Virus record (IMG/VR): IMGVR_UViG_3300035180_001778
Location: 62,001-126,000 of that record
Length of the DNA stretch: 64,000 nucleotides
From: a virus
Direction: 5' to 3' (one strand)
Shown: positions 5,052 to 37,172 of the stretch, piece after piece
Layout: each line of letters starts with the position of its first letter
Numbering within the stretch: position 1 is the stretch's first letter
Notes under the pieces: generated by a model
Told to the model about the DNA's origin: nothing
Database searches by the model: none
The model's input: the letters and a program-made list of their open reading frames with translations, nothing else
Position numbers and translations under genes: made by a program

Positions 5052-6311
5052 TTACTCTGAGTCCATTTCCTTGAGGGCCGCCTCGATCGCGTCCATGTCG
5101 AGGTCCTGGATCTGCTTGGCGACCTTGGCCATGACGAACTTGGCGATCCCCTCGTCCACCTTGGCGTCCTCATCCGATGCGAGGAAGTGGTGAACATGCT
5201 TGTGAATGCCCTCCCCAATCTCGATGTACTCGCTGAGCCCGTCGATGTGTCCCAGGATGTCGGCTGCCGCTCGTGCTGCCAGGTTCTTGGTGAGGGTCTT
5301 TCCGAAGGCCCCTGCAAGAGCGAGAGGCCCACCACTGACTGTCAGAGCCGTTGCCGCAGCGGTGATGGCCATGTGCTTGGCCAATGTCTTGAAAGCGTGC
5401 TTCTGCTCGGGGGTCATCGAACCCCCCTTGATGACAGCCTTCACCCCGGCTGCCGCTTCCTTGTACTCCTTCACCTCGTTCTTCACGGTGGTGATGGCAT
5501 GCTGCACGACGTTGTGCGGGGCGTCCATCAGCTTCTTGTGGGCCCCCATGAGGGCCGTTCGACGATAGGCATCGTCGGTGAAGAACTGCTTGACGGCCGC
5601 GGGCGCATCCTCGTAGAACTTCTTCGCTTTGGCCCCGAGTCCTTGCAGGCGCTCCTTCCAGGACTTCTTGGGTGCATCATGCTCATGCTCCCCGCCACCC
5701 CCATGATCTTCCTTTTTGGTGACGGTGTGATTCGCAGGGTCGGCTTGAGGGTGCTCGTGCAGGTACTCTTTCATTTCCTCGGGCGATGAGTGCTCCATCG
5801 CAAGCTGCATCTGGAAACGAGCGACAACGCGGAGAAGTGTGCGGGATTGCGTCATGTGAGGCCTCGGTCGAAAAGTAGGGAGCATCAGTCGTCGGTCGTA
5901 GCGATCTCGCAGCTCTTTCCAATCGTTCCCCGAGGGGATCAACTGGGCCAGTTGCTTCGCTTCTTTTTCAGCGAGCTGCCAGGCATGCGGTCCCAACGTC
6001 GTCAGGATCTTGTTGGGGTCATGGGGCCATTTCTTCCGCATCATGTCCAAAATGGGGGTCTTCATCCAGACCTTCCCCAAATCACTGAGGTCGTAGATGA
6101 CGAACGCGCTCAGCTCGTTAATCTGAGCGTAATTGGCCATGCCCTTGTGGTAACTGGCCCCATCCGTTTCCTGAATCCCAGTGAACCCCGTGTCTTGGAG
6201 AGAGTGCAGGCACGCGAGGATCTTCGACATGGCCTGACGAAAATCCTCGGGCAAGGCTGAAGCCCAAGATGCTTGAAAGCTCCGCGCGACACGATAGACG
6301 ATGGGTAGCAT
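5052..6311 (-). CDS. Two-part protein with two RVxxRF-type tags, 419 aa
   Basis: The N-terminus MLPIVYRVARSFQ carries the recurrent RVA tag. A domain of about 150 residues follows. Then MTQSRTLLRVVARFQ (from residue 153) looks like a second N-terminus fused in frame. After it come a His/Glu-rich linker (KKEDHGGGGEHEHDA), long charged helices and an Ala-rich hydrophobic segment (AITAAATALTVSGGPLALAG). The second half could in principle start separately at ATG 5855. The gene starts in a TGATG overlap with the gene before it. No enzymatic motif recognised. A virion-internal or ejected protein is possible but inferred only from the tag. Confidence 0.65.
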   Translation of the reverse strand: MLPIVYRVARSFQASWASALPEDFRQAMSKILACLHSLQDTGFTGIQETDGASYHKGMANYAQINELSAFVIYDLSDLGKVWMKTPILDMMRKKWPHDPNKILTTLGPHAWQLAEKEAKQLAQLIPSGNDWKELRDRYDRRLMLPTFRPRPHMTQSRTLLRVVARFQMQLAMEHSSPEEMKEYLHEHPQADPANHTVTKKEDHGGGGEHEHDAPKKSWKERLQGLGAKAKKFYEDAPAAVKQFFTDDAYRRTALMGAHKKLMDAPHNVVQHAITTVKNEVKEYKEAAAGVKAVIKGGSMTPEQKHAFKTLAKHMAITAAATALTVSGGPLALAGAFGKTLTKNLAARAAADILGHIDGLSEYIEIGEGIHKHVHHFLASDEDAKVDEGIAKFVMAKVAKQIQDLDMDAIEAALKEMDSE

Positions 6312-7102
6312 CAGGCGTACTCGGTGGAAAGTCGGTCAAGGACGGTATCTTTGACGTCGCCGATGGCCCAGTAGGTCGCCTGGTTGTCTTCGTGGGGGGA
6401 ATGCACGTTGATCCCCATGTGGACCAGAGCTTCCTCAACCTTCGCGAGGTCCAACTCCCTCTTGAGGACCATACCCACGTTGTAGCCGATAGCTTGGCTC
6501 TGTGTGGATCGATGGGGGCTATCGTAGGGCTTGAACCCCAAAGGAATGGCCCCGTTCAACACATCAGAGATGGCCCGGTCCACCTTCGGCTTGACGTACT
6601 TGGCGTAGTACTCCTGAACGCCTGCATTGACCTTCTTTTGGAAGTCGCTGTCGTTCTGCTCGAAAAAGGTCTTGAGCCCAGACACGGTCTCATCGTAGAC
6701 CCGCTCCATCCTCTTTTCGAGGTCGTGGTACTCTTCGTGAGTGACCCGGTTGAGCTGGCCCTTCTTTTCGAGATGCACGATCATCGAAGCGAAGTGTCCC
6801 GAGGGACCATGGATCTTCAGGTCCCCCTCAGAGACCTGCCACATCGCCACGATCTTCTTCTCGGCATCGAACACCCACAGGTATCTCCAGGGGGTGTTGC
6901 TCGGGAGGTGAATGTAGCGAGCATGTCCCGTCCCCGGGCCGCCCTCATCGACCTTTTCCGAGACGTCCATCCCCTCTCCACGGAACGTGCTCAGCACGTA
7001 CTTCCGACCCCCAATGGTGGCCGTCGGGACCCCAGGTTTGGGTTTGAAGGGGATGACCACCGCTGCATAGCGGGTCGCAACACGATGGACGAGGTCACTC
7101 AC
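6311..7102 (-). CDS. Hypothetical protein with N-terminal RVATRY tag
   Basis: With the GTG at 7102 the protein starts (M)SDLVHRVATRYAAV, matching the tag shared by its neighbours. A TTG at 7120 would add six residues. The body has GGRKYVLSTFRGEG, a Trp-containing segment and long helices (EEYHDLEKRMERVYDETV). No domain recognised. It is immediately followed by another tagged gene (5052-6311) and preceded by one (7130-7480), so three tagged proteins are adjacent. Confidence 0.6.
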   Translation of the reverse strand: MSDLVHRVATRYAAVVIPFKPKPGVPTATIGGRKYVLSTFRGEGMDVSEKVDEGGPGTGHARYIHLPSNTPWRYLWVFDAEKKIVAMWQVSEGDLKIHGPSGHFASMIVHLEKKGQLNRVTHEEYHDLEKRMERVYDETVSGLKTFFEQNDSDFQKKVNAGVQEYYAKYVKPKVDRAISDVLNGAIPLGFKPYDSPHRSTQSQAIGYNVGMVLKRELDLAKVEEALVHMGINVHSPHEDNQATYWAIGDVKDTVLDRLSTEYA

Positions 7103-7129
7103 ACTGAGGGGAGGGCACAAGAGAAAATG

Positions 7130-7480
7130 CTACCGGGGGAGGGGATTCTTTTCCCGGTACTCCTTCGAGTGAAGGACCATCTCCAGGAACTCCTCGACCG
7201 ACATCTTGCGAATGTCGTGATCGTAGTTGATCGTTCGAGCGTCCCCGTACTCATGCCGCCCGCGGTCGTTGGGCAGGGTGAAGTACACAGACTGCGCCTT
7301 GAACCAGAGCTTGAACTTGCCGTCGGGTGAGGTCGCGTGGGGCACCTTGAGCCCTTCCGTGACCTTCCAACCCTTCGTCTTGAGGAAGGCGAATATCTCG
7401 GCTTGAGCTTGCGGGTAGGTGCGTTGCTTGGCTGCCGCTGCCTCCAAAAACCGAGCCACCACGCGCTTGTTCAGATCCAT
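7130..7480 (-). CDS. Small hypothetical protein with N-terminal RVVARFL tag
   Basis: The start ATG 7480 gives MDLNKRVVARFLEAAAAK. A GTG two codons upstream is the alternative. After the tag comes a compact domain of about 90 residues (KGWKVTEGLKVPHATSPDGK, then a strand-rich segment) that might be a small alpha/beta fold. CTTGTA lies 19 nt upstream of the ATG. Function unknown. Confidence 0.65.
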   Translation of the reverse strand: MDLNKRVVARFLEAAAAKQRTYPQAQAEIFAFLKTKGWKVTEGLKVPHATSPDGKFKLWFKAQSVYFTLPNDRGRHEYGDARTINYDHDIRKMSVEEFLEMVLHSKEYREKNPLPR

Positions 7481-7493
7481 GCCCACACCCCCC

Positions 7494-7499
7494 TACAAG
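7494..7499 (-). promoter_or_regulatory. TGTA start-site motif
   Basis: CTTGTA, 19 nt upstream of the ATG at 7480; the loosest spacing in the set. Confidence 0.35.
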
Positions 7500-7503
7500 A
7501 GGA

Positions 7504-7962
7504 TCAATCCTGTTTCACTTCGACATCCATGTCGCTCTCGAATGCACTGGCCAGTCGAGCGATGTCCCGAGAGATGTGATCCACTCGTTTCTTCTGACCA
7601 GCTCCGTAGGGGACCTTGAAGTGCGCTCCCAGAAAGTTGGTCGGGTCCGTGTAATTCCCCGCGTGCAGCGACCCAAGGAACTTCTTCAAGCTGGCGACGG
7701 GTTCGCAGTAGGTGACGGAACCCTCAACCCCATGCTCCTCGAAGAACTTCTTCAGGGAGTCCCGAACAGTTGCGGCCAATGCAGCCACCTGCTCCGGGAT
7801 CTCCGGATCGAACTGAGGGCGAGTAACCCCATTCCCCCCACCTGATGGGTCCTTACCCAAGGGTGTTTTTTGGTTCAAGATCACAGACGCCGTGATGTTG
7901 ACCTGAGCGTAGGGCTTGGCGCTGGAAGGCTTCCCGATACGGAAAATGCAGGTGGGCTTCAA
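7504..7962 (-). CDS. Hypothetical protein, about 152 aa
   Basis: The frame begins at a TTG (MKPTCIFRIGKPSSAKPYAQ). It continues with VNITASVIL and a C-terminal helical half including FKVPYGAGQKKRVDHISRDI. The in-frame sequence upstream has coding character but no ATG. An ATG at 8024 would reach this frame only after a -1 shift near 8000, so the true N-terminus is uncertain. No family recognised. Confidence 0.6.
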   Translation of the reverse strand: MKPTCIFRIGKPSSAKPYAQVNITASVILNQKTPLGKDPSGGGNGVTRPQFDPEIPEQVAALAATVRDSLKKFFEEHGVEGSVTYCEPVASLKKFLGSLHAGNYTDPTNFLGAHFKVPYGAGQKKRVDHISRDIARLASAFESDMDVEVKQD

Positions 7963-8036
7963 GCGAGACTCTTGAAACCTTCGGAAAACCTCAAATGCCA
8001 GACGATCCCTGCCACAGCCGCCATATCAAAGAACTC

Positions 8037-8756
8037 TCAGACTTCGACCGTCAGCTCGAAATTGAACTTGGGGTTCTCTTCTTTCCGCGCGTACCCGAAC
8101 GGGTTGCAGAGCACTCGGGTTTTCCCAAGCTGGTAGTCGAAGGACCCGTGGGTATGGCCGTGCATACAAATCGCAGGCTTCTTCGCGAGGATCAACTCCT
8201 CCATGTTGCAGACGAAGAACGAGTTGATCTCGGATCCCTTGTACTGCTCTGGAGTCGACCGCGGAGAAGGGAGATGATGGGTGACGACGATGTCCCCCTC
8301 TCGCACCTCCTTCTGGAAGAAGGCAAGGGTGGCTGCATTGTCCTGGTACACCCAGGACTCCAGCTCGGGGATGAGCTTGAAATCCCACATCTCATCCTTC
8401 GGGGCAATGGGGTCGTGACGAAACCACATCGTACCCCCAAGGAAGCGCTGCCCTCCGAGAACCACAGAGCTGTTGTCCAGCCAGTGGAAATTCTTGTGTC
8501 GGCCGGCGAAGTTGTGCAGCCGTTTGCGAAGCTCCCCACGAGTCATCCGGTAGTACTCGTGGTTTCCAGGGACGTAGACCACCTCCGTGTACTGGTGGCA
8601 GAGGAGACTCAGCGCCGGGATCAGCTCGGCTCCCACCGTAAGGTCTCCCGCCACAACGAGCACATCGCAACCATCGGGGAGGATGCTCTCCAGAAGAGAG
8701 CGTCCCGAGTCCCGTTGGAACTCGAAGTGAAGATCCGAGATGATGCCGACTTTCAT
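8037..8756 (-). CDS. Calcineurin-like metallophosphoesterase
   Basis: 239 aa with the full metal-ligand set of the superfamily: SDLHFEF (residues 7-13), AGDL, GNHEYY, THHLPS and a C-terminal HGHTHGSFDY. These bind two divalent metals and hydrolyse phosphomonoesters or diesters. The substrate (nucleic acid, nucleotide or phosphoprotein) cannot be told. The architecture is the compact single-domain form often seen in phages. It starts directly after the upstream gene stops, without an obvious promoter of its own. Confidence 0.88.
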   Translation of the reverse strand: MKVGIISDLHFEFQRDSGRSLLESILPDGCDVLVVAGDLTVGAELIPALSLLCHQYTEVVYVPGNHEYYRMTRGELRKRLHNFAGRHKNFHWLDNSSVVLGGQRFLGGTMWFRHDPIAPKDEMWDFKLIPELESWVYQDNAATLAFFQKEVREGDIVVTHHLPSPRSTPEQYKGSEINSFFVCNMEELILAKKPAICMHGHTHGSFDYQLGKTRVLCNPFGYARKEENPKFNFELTVEV

Positions 8757-8759
8757 GGG

Positions 8760-9029
8760 TCAGATATCGAAGACTGCGCCGGGTTCGTACGGGTCCCATC
8801 CCTTTGCAATGCCTTGCCGGATGGCATTGATAATGAGGGAGGGAGTCACACTCTCGATCACCATTGAGGTGCGGAGTATTTGTCCAGGCTTTTCCGTGTC
8901 AGCCTGGATCAAGATGAGCCGACCCCCCGCATGACGTTGGGGGTCGGTGTTGGTAGGGGTCTTCACCAGATAGCGATAGGCCCTACCCTCTACCTGAATA
9001 CGCCTGCTCTTCTTCTTGGGGAAGCTCAT
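8760..9029 (-). CDS. Small hypothetical protein, paralogue of its upstream neighbour
   Basis: 89 aa. It shares the layout of the 9033-9329 product: a basic start, VEGRAYRYLVK, a central strand pair with a lysine-rich turn, then VTPSLIINAI and a KGWDP end. The two genes are adjacent and look like a tandem duplication. No function recognised. It is a compact alpha/beta protein with no cysteine cluster. Confidence 0.65.
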   Translation of the reverse strand: MSFPKKKSRRIQVEGRAYRYLVKTPTNTDPQRHAGGRLILIQADTEKPGQILRTSMVIESVTPSLIINAIRQGIAKGWDPYEPGAVFDI

Positions 9030-9032
9030 GGG

Positions 9033-9329
9033 TCACTCGTCGATCGAGTCGCCAACGTAGAAGGCGATACCCCTGGCGCTGGGGTCCCAGCCTCGCTTCA
9101 GCGCCTTCGGGATCATCTCCGCAACCAGGCGAGGCGTGATGACCCTGTAGTAGGACAGGCGGCGAAAAAGAACCCGACCGGGTTTCGGCGTCACCTCCTG
9201 GACGATCAGGACCAGCTCTTTCTGGTCTCGCTCCTCAAAGCGATGGGAAATCTTCACGAGGTAGCGGTAAGACTTCCCATCGACCACGATAGGGCGGCTT
9301 CCTTTTCGAGGGATGCCCATCTCGATCAC
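9033..9329 (-). CDS. Small hypothetical protein, paralogue of its downstream neighbour
   Basis: 98 aa. VDGKSYRYLVK, VTPKPGR, ITPRLVAEMIPKAL and RGWDPS mirror the 8760-9029 product. The GTG at 9329 overlaps the clpX stop as GTGA. An ATG three codons later (MGIPRKGSRP) is the alternative start. Similar small proteins with a V.G..YRY strand and a GW.P C-terminus occur as uncharacterised genes in bacteria, as far as I recall. The role is unknown. Confidence 0.65.
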   Translation of the reverse strand: MIEMGIPRKGSRPIVVDGKSYRYLVKISHRFEERDQKELVLIVQEVTPKPGRVLFRRLSYYRVITPRLVAEMIPKALKRGWDPSARGIAFYVGDSIDE

Positions 9330-10576
9330 CCCACCGCTTCTGCCGGGACATCCCGGCGGAGGATGACAGCTTGACCCTTCCCCATGGCCGCTTCCTCCGT
9401 GATCCGGATCGAGACGATCGTGGGGTCGCTCGGCGAGATGTAGGCGTACGGAGCCAGGATGCTCTCGACGACGGACCGAAGCCCGCGGGCTCCCGTCGGC
9501 CGCTTCTTGGCCTCCTTGGCGATGTGCCGGAGGGCAGCATCATCGAACTGGAGATCGATGCGGTCCATGTGGAAGAGGGCCTTGACCTGCTTGATGATGG
9601 CGTTGCGGGGCTCCGTGAGGATCTTCAACATCTCCTCTTCCGTCAGCTCGATCACCGTCGTGAGCACCGGGACGCGCCCCATCAGCTCGGGGATGATCCC
9701 GAAGCTGAGAATGTCGTCTTCCTTCACCTCCAGGTAGGTCTCCGTCTTGGAGAGCTTCTTCTTGTCCTCCGCTCCGAATCCAAGGCTCGACTTGTGGTTC
9801 ACCCGCTGCGAGATGATGTCCTCGATTCCGGCGAAGGACCCGGCGCAGATGAAGAGCACGTTGGTGGTGTCGAACGGGTCCGATTCCCCACCTGACGTGA
9901 CCATCTTGCCCTGCCCGCGGGGCACGTTGATCTTGTTCCCTTCGAGGAGCTTGAGGAGGCTCTGCTGAACGCCTTCCCCCGTGACGTCGCGATAGCCGGT
10001 CGACCCGCGGCCCGACTTCCTCGCCAGCTTGTCGAACTCGTCGATGAAAATGATCCCCCACTGAGCACGCTCGATGTCCCCGTTGGCATCCGCGATGAGC
10101 CCCTGAATCAAGCTCTCGACGTCATCCCCGACGTAGCCCGCTTGCGTCAGCTTGGTCGCGTCCGCGTTGAACATGGGCACGCCCAACATCCGGGCGAGGG
10201 TTCGAGCGATCTCGGTCTTGCCGCAACCGCTCGGGCCGATGACCATCATGTTGCTCTTCTGGATCTCGACCCCAAGATCCAGGTTTTGACGGACGGCATC
10301 CCGCCGCTTGTAGTGGTTGTAGACGGCCACCGCCATGTCCACCTTCGCCCGTTCCTGCCCGATGACGTACTGATCCAGGAAGGCCCGGATTTCCATGGGC
10401 TTGCGAAGGACTTCCTTCTTGTCGGCGTTCTTCTTCAGCTCCGCTTCGCCGAAGGCTCGACCGATCTGCCCCACACACTTGTCACAGATGAGGGCGCCCC
10501 CCTCAACCCCCGCGAGGGCTTTCACCTCATTGCGGGGTTTTCCACAGAACGAGCACTTGGCGATGTTTTGGGCCAT
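9326..10576 (-). CDS. clpX: ClpX-like AAA+ unfoldase
   Basis: 416 aa, full-length for ClpX. It has a zinc-binding N-domain with Cys 8, 11, 31 and 34, Walker A GPSGCGKTE (about 114-122), pore loop GYVG (147-150), Walker B IIFIDEFDK and sensor/arginine motifs near GARGLRSVVE. ClpX unfolds tagged proteins and feeds them to ClpP. Here the ClpP-docking loop reads LGF (SSLGFGAE), a permitted variant of IGF. The RKH substrate loop is absent, replaced by a GQGKMVTSGG segment. No clpP is in the window, so it may recruit host ClpP with altered substrate choice. The ATG has GGTGTA exactly 16 nt upstream. Confidence 0.93.
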   Translation of the reverse strand: MAQNIAKCSFCGKPRNEVKALAGVEGGALICDKCVGQIGRAFGEAELKKNADKKEVLRKPMEIRAFLDQYVIGQERAKVDMAVAVYNHYKRRDAVRQNLDLGVEIQKSNMMVIGPSGCGKTEIARTLARMLGVPMFNADATKLTQAGYVGDDVESLIQGLIADANGDIERAQWGIIFIDEFDKLARKSGRGSTGYRDVTGEGVQQSLLKLLEGNKINVPRGQGKMVTSGGESDPFDTTNVLFICAGSFAGIEDIISQRVNHKSSLGFGAEDKKKLSKTETYLEVKEDDILSFGIIPELMGRVPVLTTVIELTEEEMLKILTEPRNAIIKQVKALFHMDRIDLQFDDAALRHIAKEAKKRPTGARGLRSVVESILAPYAYISPSDPTIVSIRITEEAAMGKGQAVILRRDVPAEAVG

Positions 10577-10586
10577 GTTGATCTAG

Positions 10587-10592
10587 TACACC
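10587..10592 (-). promoter_or_regulatory. TGTA start-site motif
   Basis: GGTGTA, 16 nt upstream of the clpX ATG at 10576, in a true intergenic gap. Confidence 0.5.
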
Positions 10593-10624
10593 ACAAAAGC
10601 CCAAAATGCCGAATCATTTTGGGG

Positions 10625-10957
10625 TCAGTCGACGTACTTCCGGTTCGCGATCATGTCCGCGAGCAGCGGGCCCATGGCGTCGTCAAAGAAGACCCGGACG
10701 ACGCCTTTGTAAACGGCACGCTTCACCGCTTCCTCTGTGACCTGGACTCCGTCCATCTCGACACTCTTCTCGGCTTCTGCAAGAGCAGCTCGGAAGAAGT
10801 CCGAAATTGCCTGTCCCTGTTTGATGTACTCTCGAAGGTAGGCCTCGATTTCCTTCTTCACAGACTTACCGTCGTGTTTCTGGTCCAACACGTTGTCGAT
10901 CACCCAGTCGACAGCCGAGGTAGGGTCAGACGCGCGACGATCGTAGGAGTAGCTCAT
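10625..10957 (-). CDS. Hypothetical helical protein, 110 aa
   Basis: Almost entirely predicted helix (DWVIDNVLDQKHDGKSVKKE, then DFFRAALAEAEKSVEMDG). No cysteines or catalytic motif, and no family recognised. Its ATG overlaps the stop of the upstream zinc-finger ORF by four bases, which fixes both gene ends. Confidence 0.65.
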   Translation of the reverse strand: MSYSYDRRASDPTSAVDWVIDNVLDQKHDGKSVKKEIEAYLREYIKQGQAISDFFRAALAEAEKSVEMDGVQVTEEAVKRAVYKGVVRVFFDDAMGPLLADMIANRKYVD

Positions 10958-11184
10958 GCCGGGATCTCCGCGTTTTTCTTGATCAGAGCCCGCTGAACGG
11001 ACTCACAAGACCTGCAACGACGCTGTACACCATAGGGTAGGCCATCGTACCGTCGATACTCCGAGCACTTTTTCGGTGTCTTACATTTACTGCAAGCCTT
11101 CACAGCACTCGGGTCGTACACCCCAAGCCATTTGGTACGCGTACGAGCATGGTGCGCTTGAGCTTCGGCCCGTTCACGTACCAC
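10954..11184 (-). CDS. Zinc-finger C-terminal part of a GIY-YIG endonuclease (frame-split)
   Basis: The frame encodes HARTRTKWLGVYDPSAVKAC and then two CxxC pairs (CSKC and CRSC, about 25 residues apart), a treble-clef or zinc-ribbon-like DNA-binding end typical of phage homing-type endonucleases. The nominal GTG start at 11184 lies inside the coding frame of the GIY-YIG ORF. The coding-like frame continues upstream to about 11220 without a start. A single -1 shift at the GGG at 11220-11222 joins it to the GIY-YIG catalytic part. The stop is coupled to the next gene by ATGA. Confidence 0.6.
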   Translation of the reverse strand: MVRERAEAQAHHARTRTKWLGVYDPSAVKACSKCKTPKKCSEYRRYDGLPYGVQRRCRSCESVQRALIKKNAEIPA

Positions 11185-11585
11185 AGTCTGAATTGGATCT
11201 TGTGCTCCAACTTTGTTGAGGGTTGGTATTTGGCGATTGCGTCCATTTCGTACTTCCTGGCATCCCCATCACTCGCTACCAACCAAACCTTCAAAAGAAG
11301 GCCTTGCTCTCGCACAGCTTGACCAATTCTCCGATCATGCTTGCATGTGGTTTGATTCGGTTCCCGGCGGTATTGCAGAATTCGACGCCAAACCCCAACC
11401 CCATTTGAATGTACCGCACACCCCGACCCAATGTAGCTAGGGCTTCCCGTTTTGGGATCGTAAAAACAGTAGACGCCGATACCTTCGGGTATCGATTTGC
11501 GTCCAAAATCAATCGCCCACATGTTCAACCCTTCTGCGTCAGGCGTGGTCAACATGAGATCGGTTACAGGTAGTGCAGGAAGCAT
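11100..11585 (-). CDS. GIY-YIG endonuclease, catalytic part (frame-split)
   Basis: The start MLPALPVTDLMLTTPD follows directly after the stop of the nitrilase-like gene. The catalytic layout is visible: GVYCFYDPKTGSPSYIGSG (GIY...YIG equivalent, with GVY and YIG), a downstream RR.L basic patch and YEMDAIAKYQP with the conserved glutamate. These enzymes cleave DNA and are often mobile. The last 40 codons, after about 11220, lose coding character while the -1 frame gains it, so the natural protein probably continues into the 10954-11184 frame, giving about 210 aa. Confidence 0.7.
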   Translation of the reverse strand: MLPALPVTDLMLTTPDAEGLNMWAIDFGRKSIPEGIGVYCFYDPKTGSPSYIGSGCAVHSNGVGVWRRILQYRREPNQTTCKHDRRIGQAVREQGLLLKVWLVASDGDARKYEMDAIAKYQPSTKLEHKIQFRLWYVNGPKLKRTMLVRVPNGLGCTTRVL

Positions 11586-11587
11586 CT

Positions 11588-12361
11588 TCAGGTAGGAATA
11601 TCGCAGTAAACAACGCAGTCCTGGAGCCAGTGCCCCTTGAGGCCGTCGCAGTGGACCTTCCCCGAGGGCTCGATGACGCAGATGCCGCCCTCGCCGAAGT
11701 CGTTCGGGACCTCTTTGCCGTAACGGTTCGCGACGATGAGCCAGGTGTTGTTGTCCTTCGCGAAGTCCCACCACGTCGTTGAAGGGAAGCCCCCGTTGCC
11801 CCAGTTGGCCGAGAAGCACACGACGTCAGCATCCCCCGATTCGTAGAAGTCGGTCCACTTGTCGTCCTTCTTGTTTCGGACGTCTCGGCAGATGAGAAGC
11901 CCGACCCGAAGCGTGGTGGAAGGCTCTCCAATCCCTGCCTCGAACTTCGCTCGGATGACGGGTGGATTCCCCTTCCCCTCGTGCGCCCAGAGGATGTCGT
12001 TCCCCCACAGGTTGACCTTGCGATAGGACTCGAAGTAGCCCGTGGGGTCGATGTAGACCTGGCTGTTGTAGAGCTTGTTGGTGCCCACCTCGCGCTCGAC
12101 CATTCCCCAGACGAGGTGGACGTTGTAGGCGGACGCGAGCGCGTGCATCGCCTTCATCGTCAGGCTGTTGAGGGATATCTCCTCAGCCACGGGGATGGCA
12201 TCCTCCTCGCCCATGAAGCTGTACCCCGTGGTGACCAGCTCCGGGAGAACGATGAGCCGGGCCCCGTTCTCCGCCGCGTGGAGAACGAGCCTGGCGACTT
12301 TGCGGAGATTTCCGAGCTTGTCCCCATACGTGGGGGCGAATTGAACAGCGGCGACCTTCAT
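11588..12361 (-). CDS. Carbon-nitrogen hydrolase (nitrilase superfamily)
   Basis: 257 aa starting MKVAAVQFAPTYGDKLGN. The catalytic triad of the superfamily is present: Glu41 in LPELVTTGYS, Lys115 in YRKVNLWG and Cys158 in LLICRDVR. Family members hydrolyse amides or nitriles, and the closest-looking groups are N-carbamoylputrescine amidase and omega-amidase types. The substrate cannot be assigned. A longer ORF extends upstream, but this ATG is the natural start for the fold and the extension overlaps the RNA-ligase gene. No polyamine or NAD genes are adjacent, so the metabolic role is open. Confidence 0.85.
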   Translation of the reverse strand: MKVAAVQFAPTYGDKLGNLRKVARLVLHAAENGARLIVLPELVTTGYSFMGEEDAIPVAEEISLNSLTMKAMHALASAYNVHLVWGMVEREVGTNKLYNSQVYIDPTGYFESYRKVNLWGNDILWAHEGKGNPPVIRAKFEAGIGEPSTTLRVGLLICRDVRNKKDDKWTDFYESGDADVVCFSANWGNGGFPSTTWWDFAKDNNTWLIVANRYGKEVPNDFGEGGICVIEPSGKVHCDGLKGHWLQDCVVYCDIPT

Positions 12362-12390
12362 ACCAGAGGCCCCGATATGAGAAGAAACCG

Positions 12391-12956
12391 CTACTCTGCC
12401 TGAGCCCCTTTGGGGGACTCGTCGTTCTTGAGGGTCACCTTGAAAAGGGACGAGGAAGCCGTGTGGAAGATGACCACGCCTTCGGGGTCCATGTAGCCAG
12501 GAGCTGCCTGGCTCCCCTTCTCGCGAAGAAGGGTCAGAGCGTTCTCCGTGACGACTCGGATGTCCGTGCCGCGCCCGAGAACGGGAACGACGTGGCAGCA
12601 CTTCGGGCGAACCGCATCGTCACCCCAGATCGCGGTGTTGAAGAGGGAGAAGCGCTTCTCCTTGAGACCGTAGCCTCGACCGAGACCCGAGCCCCACCAC
12701 TCTCCGTTGTGACGCCCGGGGCCGAGCTTGAGGACCTCTTCCCGGTTCTCCTCGATCCAGCGGGCGAAGCCCTTGTAGTCGTCCTTGTAGGAGATGTACT
12801 TCGTGCGGGAGTTGACCCGGTAGGTCTGGAAGTCGTCGGCGATGGTGATCCCGACGTTGGCCCCGTCGAGCTTCTCCGTGGCGACACACTCGCGGTTCAA
12901 CCGGCTGATTTTTGGAAGGGATCGAAAGCGGTCTGGAGAAGTTCTTGAGCGTCCAT
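12391..12956 (-). CDS. RNA ligase (Rnl2-like), apparent frameshift near the N-terminus
   Basis: The nucleotidyltransferase motifs are clear: motif I TEKLDGANVG with the adenylated lysine, NGEWWGSGLGRGYGLKEKRF (motif III region), PEGVVIF (motif IV) and FKVTLKND (motif V). This fits the short Rnl2/T4-gp-like RNA ligases that seal nicks in RNA. The main frame has no start before motif I. ATG 12956 (MDAQELLQTAFDPFQK), with GGTGTA 16 nt upstream, is in the other frame and joins it after a -1 shift at the T5 run 12909-12913, giving the family-typical K-ISRLNRE lead-in. Total about 189 aa. Confidence 0.78.
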
Positions 12957-12965
12957 GTGGACTCT

Positions 12966-13355
12966 TTACACCGAGAACTGGTCCTCCCAGCTCTTGATCT
13001 TGGTCCCGCGGTACATGCGCTGGTTCCCCGGCTTGGGTTCCGCGTGCATCGTCAGCGTGTTCATGGGTCCCGAGCGGCCCCCAGGGAGCTTCACCACGTA
13101 GGTCTTCCCCTGGCACTCGATGACGCCCCGACCGCCCGCCAAGAGCGCACCGAAGACCGCTCGGGGCGTCCCGAGGTCGGCCCGGAACCGGATGAACGTA
13201 GAGGTTCCGACGCTCATCGTGTCGAGGCTTTCCAACCTCCGGAAGAGCACCTGTGCTGTCTTGGAGGCCATCATCACCGCTTTTGCCACGTCATGCGACG
13301 TCTCATAGCGCGTGGACTGAACTGCGAAGTATGTCGAGAGGTCGATATCATCCAT
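12966..13355 (-). CDS. Hypothetical protein, 129 aa
   Basis: The start MDDIDLSTYFAVQS overlaps the stop of the metalloprotease-like gene by eight bases. The protein has a helical N-half, then GVIECQGKTYVVKLPGGRSG, which reads like a small beta domain, and ends KIKSWEDQFSV. No family recognised. The final codons of this gene contain the GGTGTAA that serves the ligase start. Confidence 0.6.
   Translation of the reverse strand: MDDIDLSTYFAVQSTRYETSHDVAKAVMMASKTAQVLFRRLESLDTMSVGTSTFIRFRADLGTPRAVFGALLAGGRGVIECQGKTYVVKLPGGRSGPMNTLTMHAEPKPGNQRMYRGTKIKSWEDQFSV
12967..12972 (-). promoter_or_regulatory. TGTA start-site motif
   Basis: GGTGTA, 16 nt upstream of ATG 12956 (RNA ligase); overlaps the stop of the preceding gene. 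Confidence 0.5.
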
Positions 13356-14619
13356 TGAGGATCGCTTCAATCAAAGGGATTTGAACTTTGGGCAGCTTGC
13401 CCAGTGCGTAGTAAGACACCATCTCACAGAAGTTTTCGTCGGGGTCCGTTGCGGCGTATTGCGTCACAAACCCCTTGAATTCTTCCGGGGGGACAACTTG
13501 AATGTTGTTGACCCGACACCAAGCATCAATCTTCATCGAGAGCAAGGACTTGGGGTCGTCTGCGATGGCCAGATTCACCTTCGACTTCATGAAGTCGACA
13601 CCCGTGACGACCAAGTTCTCCCCCTTGAACACCAATTTATCCCCTGCGTTGGGGTAAAGGGCCAAGGGGATCTGAATGTCATTTTGGTGGTTCTGAACTG
13701 TCCGAAAAAGGTTCCGGATCTCAGCCTTTTTCGAGGCTAGGAACTTGTGAATGAGCCGGTGCGTCAGCTCGTGACAGACGGTCTGAACCGTATCCCACCC
13801 AGGCCGAATATTGGCCCTGACGAACATCTCGTCATTCTTGATGAGATAGAACGCCATGATGCGAGAGCTTTGGCTGATGGTCTTCGTGACCAGTATGTCC
13901 CCGTAGCACACCTTTGCAAGTCCGATCTCACGGAGAGCCCGCTCAGCTTTGGCGACGACCTCTTTGTTGGTGGCCATCACCTTCTCGTCGAAGTTGCCTG
14001 TGTTGACCAGCGTGAAACTACCCACAGGGATCCGGGTAGTCGCTGCGACATCAGGGTCACTGTGAAGCTTCGCCGTGGCAAGGACTTTCTCCCCAAGTAC
14101 CACTTGAGCGTTTAGAAGGTCCATCACCTCAACATAGGCATCGAGGTACTCGATCCACGCCGCCCACCCGAACTTGTAATCGCTCTTGAGACGAACCGTT
14201 GTACGGGTCTTATCCCAGAATCGAGTGGCTGCTTCTACCCCCTTTGAAAGGGCAGGGAGGATTGCGTACTGTTGTAGGAGAGAGAAGAAGAGAGAGGTCG
14301 CCAAAGGCTTGGCTCTCTTGTACCAATTCCCCATGCCCATCGTAGACACGATGTCTCGGATGCCTTTAGCGTAAGGCTCCAGATTGGGGGGCATGGGGGC
14401 TCTGTATCTGTCTCGGTCCTCGTTGAGGGGCAACTTGTCAAGCGCCTCCCGCAACAAGGTCGAAGACGTCATGGCAAAGTCTCCGTTTTCAGCGAATAGA
14501 GAGACCCATTTTTTGAACTGAGCCAGGAGTTCAACCGGATCGCCAATGGCGTCAGCCATGAATCGACGGTAAACCCTACGGGCGATGTTCGTAGCGTTGG
14601 ACGCGAAGTCGGGGGTCAT
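13348..14619 (-). CDS. HExxH metallopeptidase-like protein with N-terminal RVYRRF tag
   Basis: 423 aa. The N-terminus includes ATNIARRVYRRFMADA, another copy of the tag seen at 5052-7480. Around residue 280 is VCHELTHRLIHKF, an HExxH zinc-binding motif, and near residue 405 is ENFCEMVSYYA, whose glutamate could be the third zinc ligand. This suggests a zinc metallopeptidase, but no named family is evident. The tag argues for ATG 14619, which overlaps the DHFR end by 44 bases. ATG 14559 would avoid the overlap but lose the tag. A prohead or virion peptidase is a possibility only. Confidence 0.65.
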   Translation of the reverse strand: MTPDFASNATNIARRVYRRFMADAIGDPVELLAQFKKWVSLFAENGDFAMTSSTLLREALDKLPLNEDRDRYRAPMPPNLEPYAKGIRDIVSTMGMGNWYKRAKPLATSLFFSLLQQYAILPALSKGVEAATRFWDKTRTTVRLKSDYKFGWAAWIEYLDAYVEVMDLLNAQVVLGEKVLATAKLHSDPDVAATTRIPVGSFTLVNTGNFDEKVMATNKEVVAKAERALREIGLAKVCYGDILVTKTISQSSRIMAFYLIKNDEMFVRANIRPGWDTVQTVCHELTHRLIHKFLASKKAEIRNLFRTVQNHQNDIQIPLALYPNAGDKLVFKGENLVVTGVDFMKSKVNLAIADDPKSLLSMKIDAWCRVNNIQVVPPEEFKGFVTQYAATDPDENFCEMVSYYALGKLPKVQIPLIEAILNG

Positions 14620-15187
14620 CGGTGAGGGCACTCTCTCTCACCATCTCCCAGTCCGAAAGAAGATCAGTGGGAAATCGGGTCACAGAAGCGCCGGGCGGGA
14701 TGTCCACAGGAGGGACGATCGTGAGATCGATGAAGTCCACCCGACGTCCCTCCAGTGCCAGCCGGTAGATATGTGCTCCCCCGGCGATCCAGATCGCGTG
14801 GGTGTCTGCGATGTTCTCCGCCGTCAGGATGGCCGACTCCAGGCTCTCGCAGACAAGATCAGGTTGTACTTTGTCCGCCCTCATGTCGCCACGGCTCACG
14901 ACGAAGTGCGTCCTTCCATGGAGCAGCCCCGGGAGAGACCGGAAGGTCTTGCTCCCCATGACGAGGACGCCACCCATGGTGACCTGCTTGAACCGTCGGA
15001 AATCTGCCGGGTACTTCCAGGGCATCTTCCCGTCGATGCCAATGACTCCGCTGGGGTCCATGGCTGCGATCAGCGCCACAGCAATCGAGCTATCTTCCAC
15101 CTGATCCTCTCCTTCAGCCAGGACTGTGTTTGAGGGTACGGGCATCGAGTGCGCCCACGCGAGGAATACTTCGTCGTACGTGCTCAT
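14576..15187 (-). CDS. Dihydrofolate reductase
   Basis: 203 aa. The DHFR core runs from SSIAVALIAAMDPSGVIG through GKMPWKYPADFRRFKQVTMG, VLVMGSKTFRSLPGLL, RTHFVVSR and IWIAGGAHIYRLAL. It reduces dihydrofolate to tetrahydrofolate with NADPH and pairs with the thymidylate synthase at 19690-20817, which consumes methylene-tetrahydrofolate. There are about 35 extra N-terminal residues before the usual start (MSTYDEVFLAWAHSMP). The ATG overlaps the previous stop as ATGA, supporting the extension. Confidence 0.9.
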   Translation of the reverse strand: MSTYDEVFLAWAHSMPVPSNTVLAEGEDQVEDSSIAVALIAAMDPSGVIGIDGKMPWKYPADFRRFKQVTMGGVLVMGSKTFRSLPGLLHGRTHFVVSRGDMRADKVQPDLVCESLESAILTAENIADTHAIWIAGGAHIYRLALEGRRVDFIDLTIVPPVDIPPGASVTRFPTDLLSDWEMVRESALTDDPRLRVQRYEHRP

Positions 15188-35505: not shown

Positions 35506-35796
35506 ATGCTGAACATCACCAACGAAACGGGCTGGGTTCTAGTCGATGACAACTTCGTCCAGTTGACCGACAACGGTCAAGACGGCGAATTTCGAGTTCG
35601 GATTATCATGGGGGAAGGAGTGTGGGGCTCCAAGAGGAGCAGCACCTTCCGTGAAGACATGGTCCTCTTCTTCAAGGACACTGCGGAAAGTATGCTGGAA
35701 GGGTGGGATCCTGTGATTCACCCCCAGTGGGAGTTCCTCGGAAAGGGTGACCCCAAGCTCCTCGCGTTCGTCCGCGAGTGCATCATTGAGTCCTAG
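35506..35796 (+). CDS. Small hypothetical protein, 96 aa
   Basis: MLNITNETGWVLVDDNFVQL; beta-rich start with a C-terminal helix (FFKDTAESMLEGWDPV). The stop TAG shares CTAG with the stop of the convergent 35793-37172 gene. The leader is identical to that of the previous plus-strand gene. Confidence 0.65.
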   Translation: MLNITNETGWVLVDDNFVQLTDNGQDGEFRVRIIMGEGVWGSKRSSTFREDMVLFFKDTAESMLEGWDPVIHPQWEFLGKGDPKLLAFVRECIIES

Positions 35797-37172
35797 AGCA
35801 GGTTGCCGGGTCCGATGGCGGGCCCGATGATGCGAAGGAAGCCGGTGAAGAGGGTTCGCGCTGCGGACGCTTGACCGGCTTCTTGCATCAGAGCCACACC
35901 AAAGGCCGCCGTCTCGTAGACAGCGAAGCTGATCTCATCCGAGACCTGCCCTCCGAAGTCCTGCACGACATCGTCGGGAGGGTTCTTGGTGGCGATCGAC
36001 TTGAGGGTAGACTCGGCGAAAGAGGACGCCTCGCTGTAGTTCGCCTGGTCGAGAGCGTACGAAACAACCAGCGCAGCCACGCCGGGATCCTTGATCTGGC
36101 CGTAGAGCGTCTTCGCGAACGGAATCTGGTCCTTCACCATCTGGAGGAAGGTGTCCTTCGCCGTCGGGGTCTTCCCTTTCTCTTCAGGAGGCCCGGCCAT
36201 GTCGATCGAGGACTTGAGCGCGTCCCTCAAGATGACGTTGGCTCGCTGAGCCTTGGTCGGCTGCTTGGAGCGCTGGAGAAGCGAGATCCCAACGGCTGCC
36301 GCCTGAACCTTCCCCTTGTCCCCATGGTCAAGGTGGGGCGTGATTCGCCAGACGAGCTTGTTGATCGCAGCTCCGACATCGAGCCCCGCGGAGGAATCGA
36401 GGAGATTCCAGAGCTTGTCCGCAACGGCCTTCCCAGCCTTTTCCTCCATGAGGAAGTACAAGACCCCGCCGCAGATGCTCTTGATGTCCCCCTTCTTGAA
36501 GGTGTCGGCCGCTGCCATCTTCTTCGCGGCGAGGAGGATCTCTTTCACGAGGTTCTCCTTCGAGCCGAGCATGTCCGGGAGCCACACCCCTCTGTCATCG
36601 GCTGTGACAATTGAAGGGTCCATAAACCGAGCTGCAACGCGAAGAACGAGATCCGAGTACATGTCTACTCCGTTGGAGAATACAGAGCTGTTGTGCCACT
36701 TGTTGAAGGTGGTGATGAGGTCCACGGTGCCAGGTCCGATGGTGGCGAACACGATCTTGAGCCCCGTTTTCGGGTTCACCCATTCGATCTTGTCCCCTGA
36801 GCCGAGCGTCGAGAGCATCCGCTCGTAGGCAGGGCTCTTCAACGCTTTCCAGTTGTTGAGCTGTGTCACGAAGTGTTTGAGGACATCCTGGACATCCTGG
36901 ACAGACACCCCTCGGAGATCCATCCGGTATTGGGCGTGCGCTGTGATCTGGATCCGCTTGATCAGGCCGATCCCAGGCTCGATGTCCAGGTGATAGACCT
37001 TCGAGGCGTCAGCGTTCGAGAGGTCCTCCCCCTGCTGAACCTCGTCAACGAGGTCATGCTGAAGATGGGGGTTTTGCACCCTTTGAAGGATGCGCTGCAC
37101 GACTGACGAGGGCCCCCCGGGCTTCCCGAGAGGCGGATTCAAGTCCGCCTGATGTGAGCCCTCGTTACTCAT
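35793..37172 (-). CDS. Two-part protein: DUF4258/BrnT-like domain fused to RVAARF-tagged helical domain
   Basis: 459 aa. Residues 1-165 include ITAHAQYRMDLRGVSVQDVQ and IEWVNPKTGLKIVFATIG, resembling the small RelE/BrnT-like or DUF4258 fold. At residue about 173 MYSDLVLRVAARFMDPS carries the recurrent tag, and the remaining 280 residues are helical (KENLVKEILLAAKKMAAADT). The tag being internal suggests that a separately tagged gene was joined, or that a start codon inside is used. No toxin activity is shown. Family assignment is by pattern only. Confidence 0.55.
   Translation of the reverse strand: MSNEGSHQADLNPPLGKPGGPSSVVQRILQRVQNPHLQHDLVDEVQQGEDLSNADASKVYHLDIEPGIGLIKRIQITAHAQYRMDLRGVSVQDVQDVLKHFVTQLNNWKALKSPAYERMLSTLGSGDKIEWVNPKTGLKIVFATIGPGTVDLITTFNKWHNSSVFSNGVDMYSDLVLRVAARFMDPSIVTADDRGVWLPDMLGSKENLVKEILLAAKKMAAADTFKKGDIKSICGGVLYFLMEEKAGKAVADKLWNLLDSSAGLDVGAAINKLVWRITPHLDHGDKGKVQAAAVGISLLQRSKQPTKAQRANVILRDALKSSIDMAGPPEEKGKTPTAKDTFLQMVKDQIPFAKTLYGQIKDPGVAALVVSYALDQANYSEASSFAESTLKSIATKNPPDDVVQDFGGQVSDEISFAVYETAAFGVALMQEAGQASAARTLFTGFLRIIGPAIGPGNLL

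Follow-up and report, generated by a model that had tools for sequence, protein, structure and literature searches.

A recurrent short peptide on unrelated proteins of phage G-related huge phages and its possible role in head loading

Why do neighbouring proteins with unrelated bodies share the same short peptide near their N-termini? The question was raised by a first-pass annotation of a 64,000-nucleotide stretch of viral DNA (the window), which proposed that the peptide is a capsid-targeting or prohead-processing signal. The window comprises bases 62001–126000 of the 350,469-base virus record G000, which we analysed in full. A crude home-made gene caller yielded 409 proteins in this record; its calls, gene starts included, are mechanical. 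The MCP of the phage and phage G gp27 (PDB 6wkk, E = 1.5e-62) are homologs, a relationship that defines the phage G-like capsid group; homologs of its terminase are found in IMG/VR huge-phage contigs, in LR745208 and in Tunturi_5.

Recurrence and position of the tag

The tag has the consensus L-A-x-[RK]-[VIL]-[AV]-x-R-[YF]-[LKQ]-x-A, with a shorter form L-A-x-R-V-A-x-R-Y/F-L. The strict expression R[VI][ALVIYF]xR[FY] occurs 12 times in the 409 proteins of G000 compared with 1.08 times in shuffled proteomes (maximum 6 in 500 shuffles), and 7 copies lie within the first 40 residues compared with 0.18 (maximum 2 in 500). A PWM trained on six records, with G012 and LR745208 kept out of training, gave counts that rest on this single PWM and a single threshold: 16 matches in G000, 13 in G002, 23 in G003, 21 in G006, 20 in G008, 7 in G010, 6 in G012 and 10 in LR745208. 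Shuffling left 0.1–0.7 matches across the eight tag-bearing records and 0.1 in the two records outside training; one of the six G012 matches is a recurring false positive, REARRP. At the same threshold, Tunturi_5 and phage G contained zero RVAxR[YF]-type tags, and a de novo search for N-terminal patterns in Tunturi_5 returned nothing convincing. Both the comparison with shuffled proteomes and the profile search had been suggested as checks in the first-pass annotation, and both bear it out: the tag is real and more extensive than first described.

Once two false families that recurred had been discarded, the eight related records held 109 tags on 96 proteins. The first 40 residues, which make up 16% of all residues, hold 62 of these tags; 16 lie near C-termini and 31 are internal. 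Most are N-terminal or at module joints. A methionine precedes 17 of the 31 internal tags by 12 residues or fewer, and internal tags after a methionine may often reflect over-extended gene starts, the G000 topoisomerase IB (TopoIB) being one case. Conserved within the tag are R at positions 0 and +4, V at +1 and a small residue at +2. Forms that may be dialects are RVAxR[YF], the one described here, RLAxR[YA] in G010 and RVAxRH in LR745208.

Some resemblances were set aside. The MCP C-terminus LTRxVVxRF, kept in several relatives, probably forms the last strand in the capsid fold and was left out of the counts, as was 'MANLFKREVRRP', a false positive that recurs in one family. THRLIHKF, within the HExxH helix, resembles the tag by chance.

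The example genes in the window all lie on the minus strand (Table 1). The tag had been reported at four N-termini, which holds for the 6311, 7130 and 13348 genes; at the 5052 gene the N-terminal YRVARSF was rejected because it is degenerate, lacks R at +4 and scores below threshold. The internal copies in the 5052 and 35793 genes do follow in-frame methionines, as described. In the 5052 gene the context of this methionine is MTQSRTLLRVVARFQ, and the homologs G003_195762 and G012_37321 begin at it; the body is homologous to tagged proteins of G003, G006 and G012. The G002 ortholog of the 6311 gene retains the tag as VHRVANRY, and the G010 homolog of the 7130 gene begins with MTLKERLVSRAL, a variant of the tag. 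The reported HExxH carrier is the 13348 protein, which has a weak Peptidase_Mx1 match below cut-off; a fold search of its predicted model against the PDB gave no significant match (best E 0.18). That the bodies differ was likewise upheld, since they fall into many unrelated groups. We also observed a short module, EH.[ST]PEA..KYL.EHP.ADP..H.V, that recurs on different tagged proteins, often directly after the tag; its carriers include the 5052 gene and the homologs in G003, G006 and G012.

Table 1 Features in the window (positions count from its first base)
Feature	Position	Strand	Remark
Tagged protein, 5052 gene	5052..6311	-	Good tag internal (residue 161); N-terminal copy degenerate
Tag LLRVVARFQ in 5052 gene	5811..5840	-	Residues ~158–167, after in-frame Met
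Tagged protein, 6311 gene	6311..7120	-	Function not recognised
Tag DLVHRVATRYAA, N-terminus of 6311 gene	7064..7093	-	Good copy, VHRVATRY
Tagged protein, 7130 gene	7130..7486	-	Function not recognised
Tag NKRVVARFLEA, N-terminus of 7130 gene	7445..7474	-	Good copy
Carrier of second N-terminal tag, MSYSYDRRAS	10625..10957	-	Separate from main finding
Tagged putative zinc metallopeptidase	13348..14631	-	HExxH = CHELTH
Tag IARRVYRRFMAD, N-terminus of HExxH protein	14557..14586	-	ARRVYRRFM; predicted mobile helix
Protein with internal tag, 35793 gene	35793..37172	-	G002 relative matches post-tag part only
Tag LVLRVAARFM in 35793 gene	36621..36650	-	Residue 178, after in-frame Met

The tags have a raised helical moment, 0.54 compared with 0.38 after shuffling. 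In an AF2 model of the window zincin (the 13348 protein) built from 8 sequences, with a mean pLDDT of 80.7, residues 1–23 have a pLDDT below 50 and a helix is predicted at residues 5–19, outside the confident body; the tag is thus predicted to be a mobile helix. The 207157/28500 orthologs have a differing N-terminal stretch between near-identical flanks, and RRV[VL][AS]R[FY]L is encoded in both. The peptide is retained while its codons change, indicating selection on the tag peptide itself.

Carriers of the tag and their fusion to head proteins in relatives

Most carriers match no known family. The recognisable ones are TopoIB, HExxH proteins, 2H phosphoesterases with weak similarity to Acb1, and small head-operon proteins; one further tagged protein has a DnaJ-like stretch just under cut-off, and no replication enzyme was recognised among the tagged carriers. 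Outside the window, G000 carries copies on its TopoIB gene, a second zincin, a 989-aa head protein and small head-operon genes. Two tagged genes sit just upstream of the head protease, the 989-aa protein belongs to the same head operon, and a small protein downstream of p751 is tagged in all six records that have such a protein. The G000 gene 54845 appears ART-like from the short motifs LYRGEP...SWTPS, and its single-sequence AF2 model (pLDDT 42) gave no usable fold. Some members of the cargo families (G010_11321 and G003_230928) have no detectable tag.

Giant ORFs were first met through relatives of a tagged KOW-like module, and the MCP regions of eight relatives were then examined. In six of them (G015, G020, G018, G014, G016 and G013), head-module proteins of 1,015–2,806 aa contain homologs of the cargo modules: TopoIB plus, variously, zincin, KOW-like, 2H and 5052-type modules. 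The 13348 protein has its fused homologs in G020 and G014, and the 5052 body matches residues 739–920 of the 1015-aa protein of G013. The portal lies to one side of the giant in G015, G020 and G014, and homologs of p243, protease, decoration protein or MCP follow it on the other side in all six. In G019 and G021, the place of the giant is occupied by a separate homolog of the 989-aa protein. The G015, G020 and G014 giants include the N-terminal signature of that protein, RLVRPAPK..KPPR..DPDL..LSLNYK, and the G016 giant matches the protein by BLAST; four of the six giants thus include part of what is a separate head protein in the window phage.

Homologs in the giants were found for 22 of 96 tagged and 21 of 3109 untagged proteins (p = 1.6e-23, a pooled value that is indicative only because the records share kinship). 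Within G000 alone the figures are 4 of 13 tagged and 1 of 396 untagged (p = 3e-6), the sole untagged protein being that of the 5052 gene. Several of the untagged giant-matching proteins look like inteins or bear variant tags. Where zincin is encoded by a gene of its own, in G000 and in LR745208, that gene carries the tag, and a TopoIB–zincin fusion in G006 has no recognisable tag at its joint. Several giants retain tags at the joints of their modules, although a single tag would be enough; this counts against a docking role, as do the cargo-family members without a tag and the many carriers that match no known family.

Other features of these records were noted in passing. In the sampled half of G015 (first 200 kb, L240–L249), where the cargo is fused in the giant, 0 dispersed tags occur in 220 called genes. 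In G021, G014, G016 and G013 (L238, L233/L234, L235/L236 and L239), long intein-like insertions that end in VHNC interrupt the gene for the head maturation protease. Four unrelated proteins of G000, compared with 0.05 after shuffling, bear a second tag at the N-terminus, M-x-Y-x-Y-[DE]-R-[RT]; besides the window gene listed in Table 1, its carriers lie at 268102, 291901 and 335387. It is also present in G002, G003, G006, G008, G010 and G012, and over 264 aa its carrier G006_288267 shares 41% identity with a section of the G015 giant.

A candidate docking peptide and its alternatives

Because relatives fuse several of the same proteins to a head-operon protein, the tag most likely steers proteins into the head. 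We regard it as quite probable, from these sequence comparisons, that the tag forms a short amphipathic helix and works as a portable docking peptide, bringing cargo into the prohead for packaging and for injection with the DNA. The helix would dock on a component of the head core, this docking would bring the cargo proteins to the prohead and so cause their packaging, and the packaged cargo would enter the cell together with the DNA. We infer from the fused homologs and the tagged head-operon genes that the tagged proteins are located in the virion. The group that would use such a docking tag is the phage G-related huge phages.

The first-pass proposal had joined targeting with processing. 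The targeting half draws good support from context: the fusions of cargo homologs, the tagged head-operon genes and the nature of the cargo. The processing half found no support. It is rather unlikely that, instead of docking, the tag chiefly serves the head maturation protease as a site to recognise or cut, marking a propeptide or a boundary between modules. A homolog of this protease is encoded in the head module, tags are frequent at N-termini and module joints, and T4 targeting sequences are cut off by the prohead protease (PMC5694885). However, the 30 residues after the tag show no enrichment of [AS]xE (8.6 versus 12.1 per 1000) or [LI]xE (9.7 versus 10.6 per 1000), although the protease may have another specificity; no residue downstream of the tags is invariant, and the 16 of 109 tags near C-termini also argue against cleavage.

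A short, amphipathic, Arg-rich helix could also be addressed to a phage compartment, to the inner membrane or to a common cytoplasmic partner, but we consider such a destination improbable: the conserved positions (R at 0 and +4, V at +1, a small residue at +2) are kept more strictly than a membrane helix requires, the recognisable carriers are not replication enzymes, and homologs of carriers are fused to a head-module protein. That some tagged genes are paralogs and that tagged genes cluster would suit an inert leader that was inherited as genes duplicated and fused and that has no present function; the many unrelated bodies and the retention of the peptide despite codon change make this very unlikely. 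We further observed at window positions 9326–10576 (minus strand) a ClpX-like protein with a zinc-binding N-terminus, identified by reading its sequence. Its presence would allow the tag to be a degradation signal for this ATPase, which we hold to be scarcely credible, as it does not account for cargo homologs being fused to a head protein and the tags occur at N-terminal, internal and C-terminal positions.

If the docking interpretation is true, it would become possible to predict from sequence which proteins huge phages inject as infection begins, including many without known relatives, and the short tag would offer a way to load proteins of choice into phage heads of very large size. Tag and fusion would then be two interchangeable answers to one packaging problem within one lineage. 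We lean slightly towards a broader proposal, in which a portable head-loading peptide code, interchangeable with gene fusion to the portal-neighbouring head protein and with dialects that include KRL[IV]KK of phage G, could make the injected set readable from the genome.

Comparison with known head-loading systems

Phage G lacks the tag of the window phage and has its own analogous one, KRL[IV]KK, at the N-termini of 25 proteins compared with 0.7 after shuffling. Several carriers lie in its head region, and six contain an ART-like HGTS-type motif; the ART identity comes from such short motifs, ART-type Pfam matches of the phage G proteins being below cut-off. Phage G encodes at least 10 ARTs, and phage ARTs have been argued to be often packaged in the head (PMC9503650); T4 Alt is known as such cargo and others are predicted (PMC9503650, PMC5512222).

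The giants of the relatives resemble polyvalent proteins, giant, multi-domain polypeptides with peptidase and ART domains whose packaging and injection have been predicted (PMC5512222). Several unrelated effector domains share one polypeptide in G015, G020, G014, G018, G016 and G013, whereas the window phage encodes the modules as separate genes with a tag on each. The terms 'targeting signal' and 'N-terminal motif' do not occur in PMC5512222, and a search for the motif strings in the full text of open-licence papers found no relevant paper.

The T4 capsid-targeting sequence is likewise a short N-terminal peptide that sends different internal proteins, Alt among them, into the prohead (PMC5694885, PMC9024508), and a short N-terminal peptide on otherwise unrelated proteins is what we found here. 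T4 carriers are internal head proteins; for the window phage, such a location would fit the fused homologs and the head-operon genes, which bear on it indirectly. Unlike those of T4, the tags of the window phage are also internal or C-terminal, and no cleavage signature was found after them; the likeness is one of principle. In P1, DarB similarly has an N-terminal signal, and its first 30 residues are enough for a reporter to reach the capsid (PMC9024508). The P1 Dar proteins yielded no consensus (PMC9024508), whereas the window phage places one consensus on many proteins.
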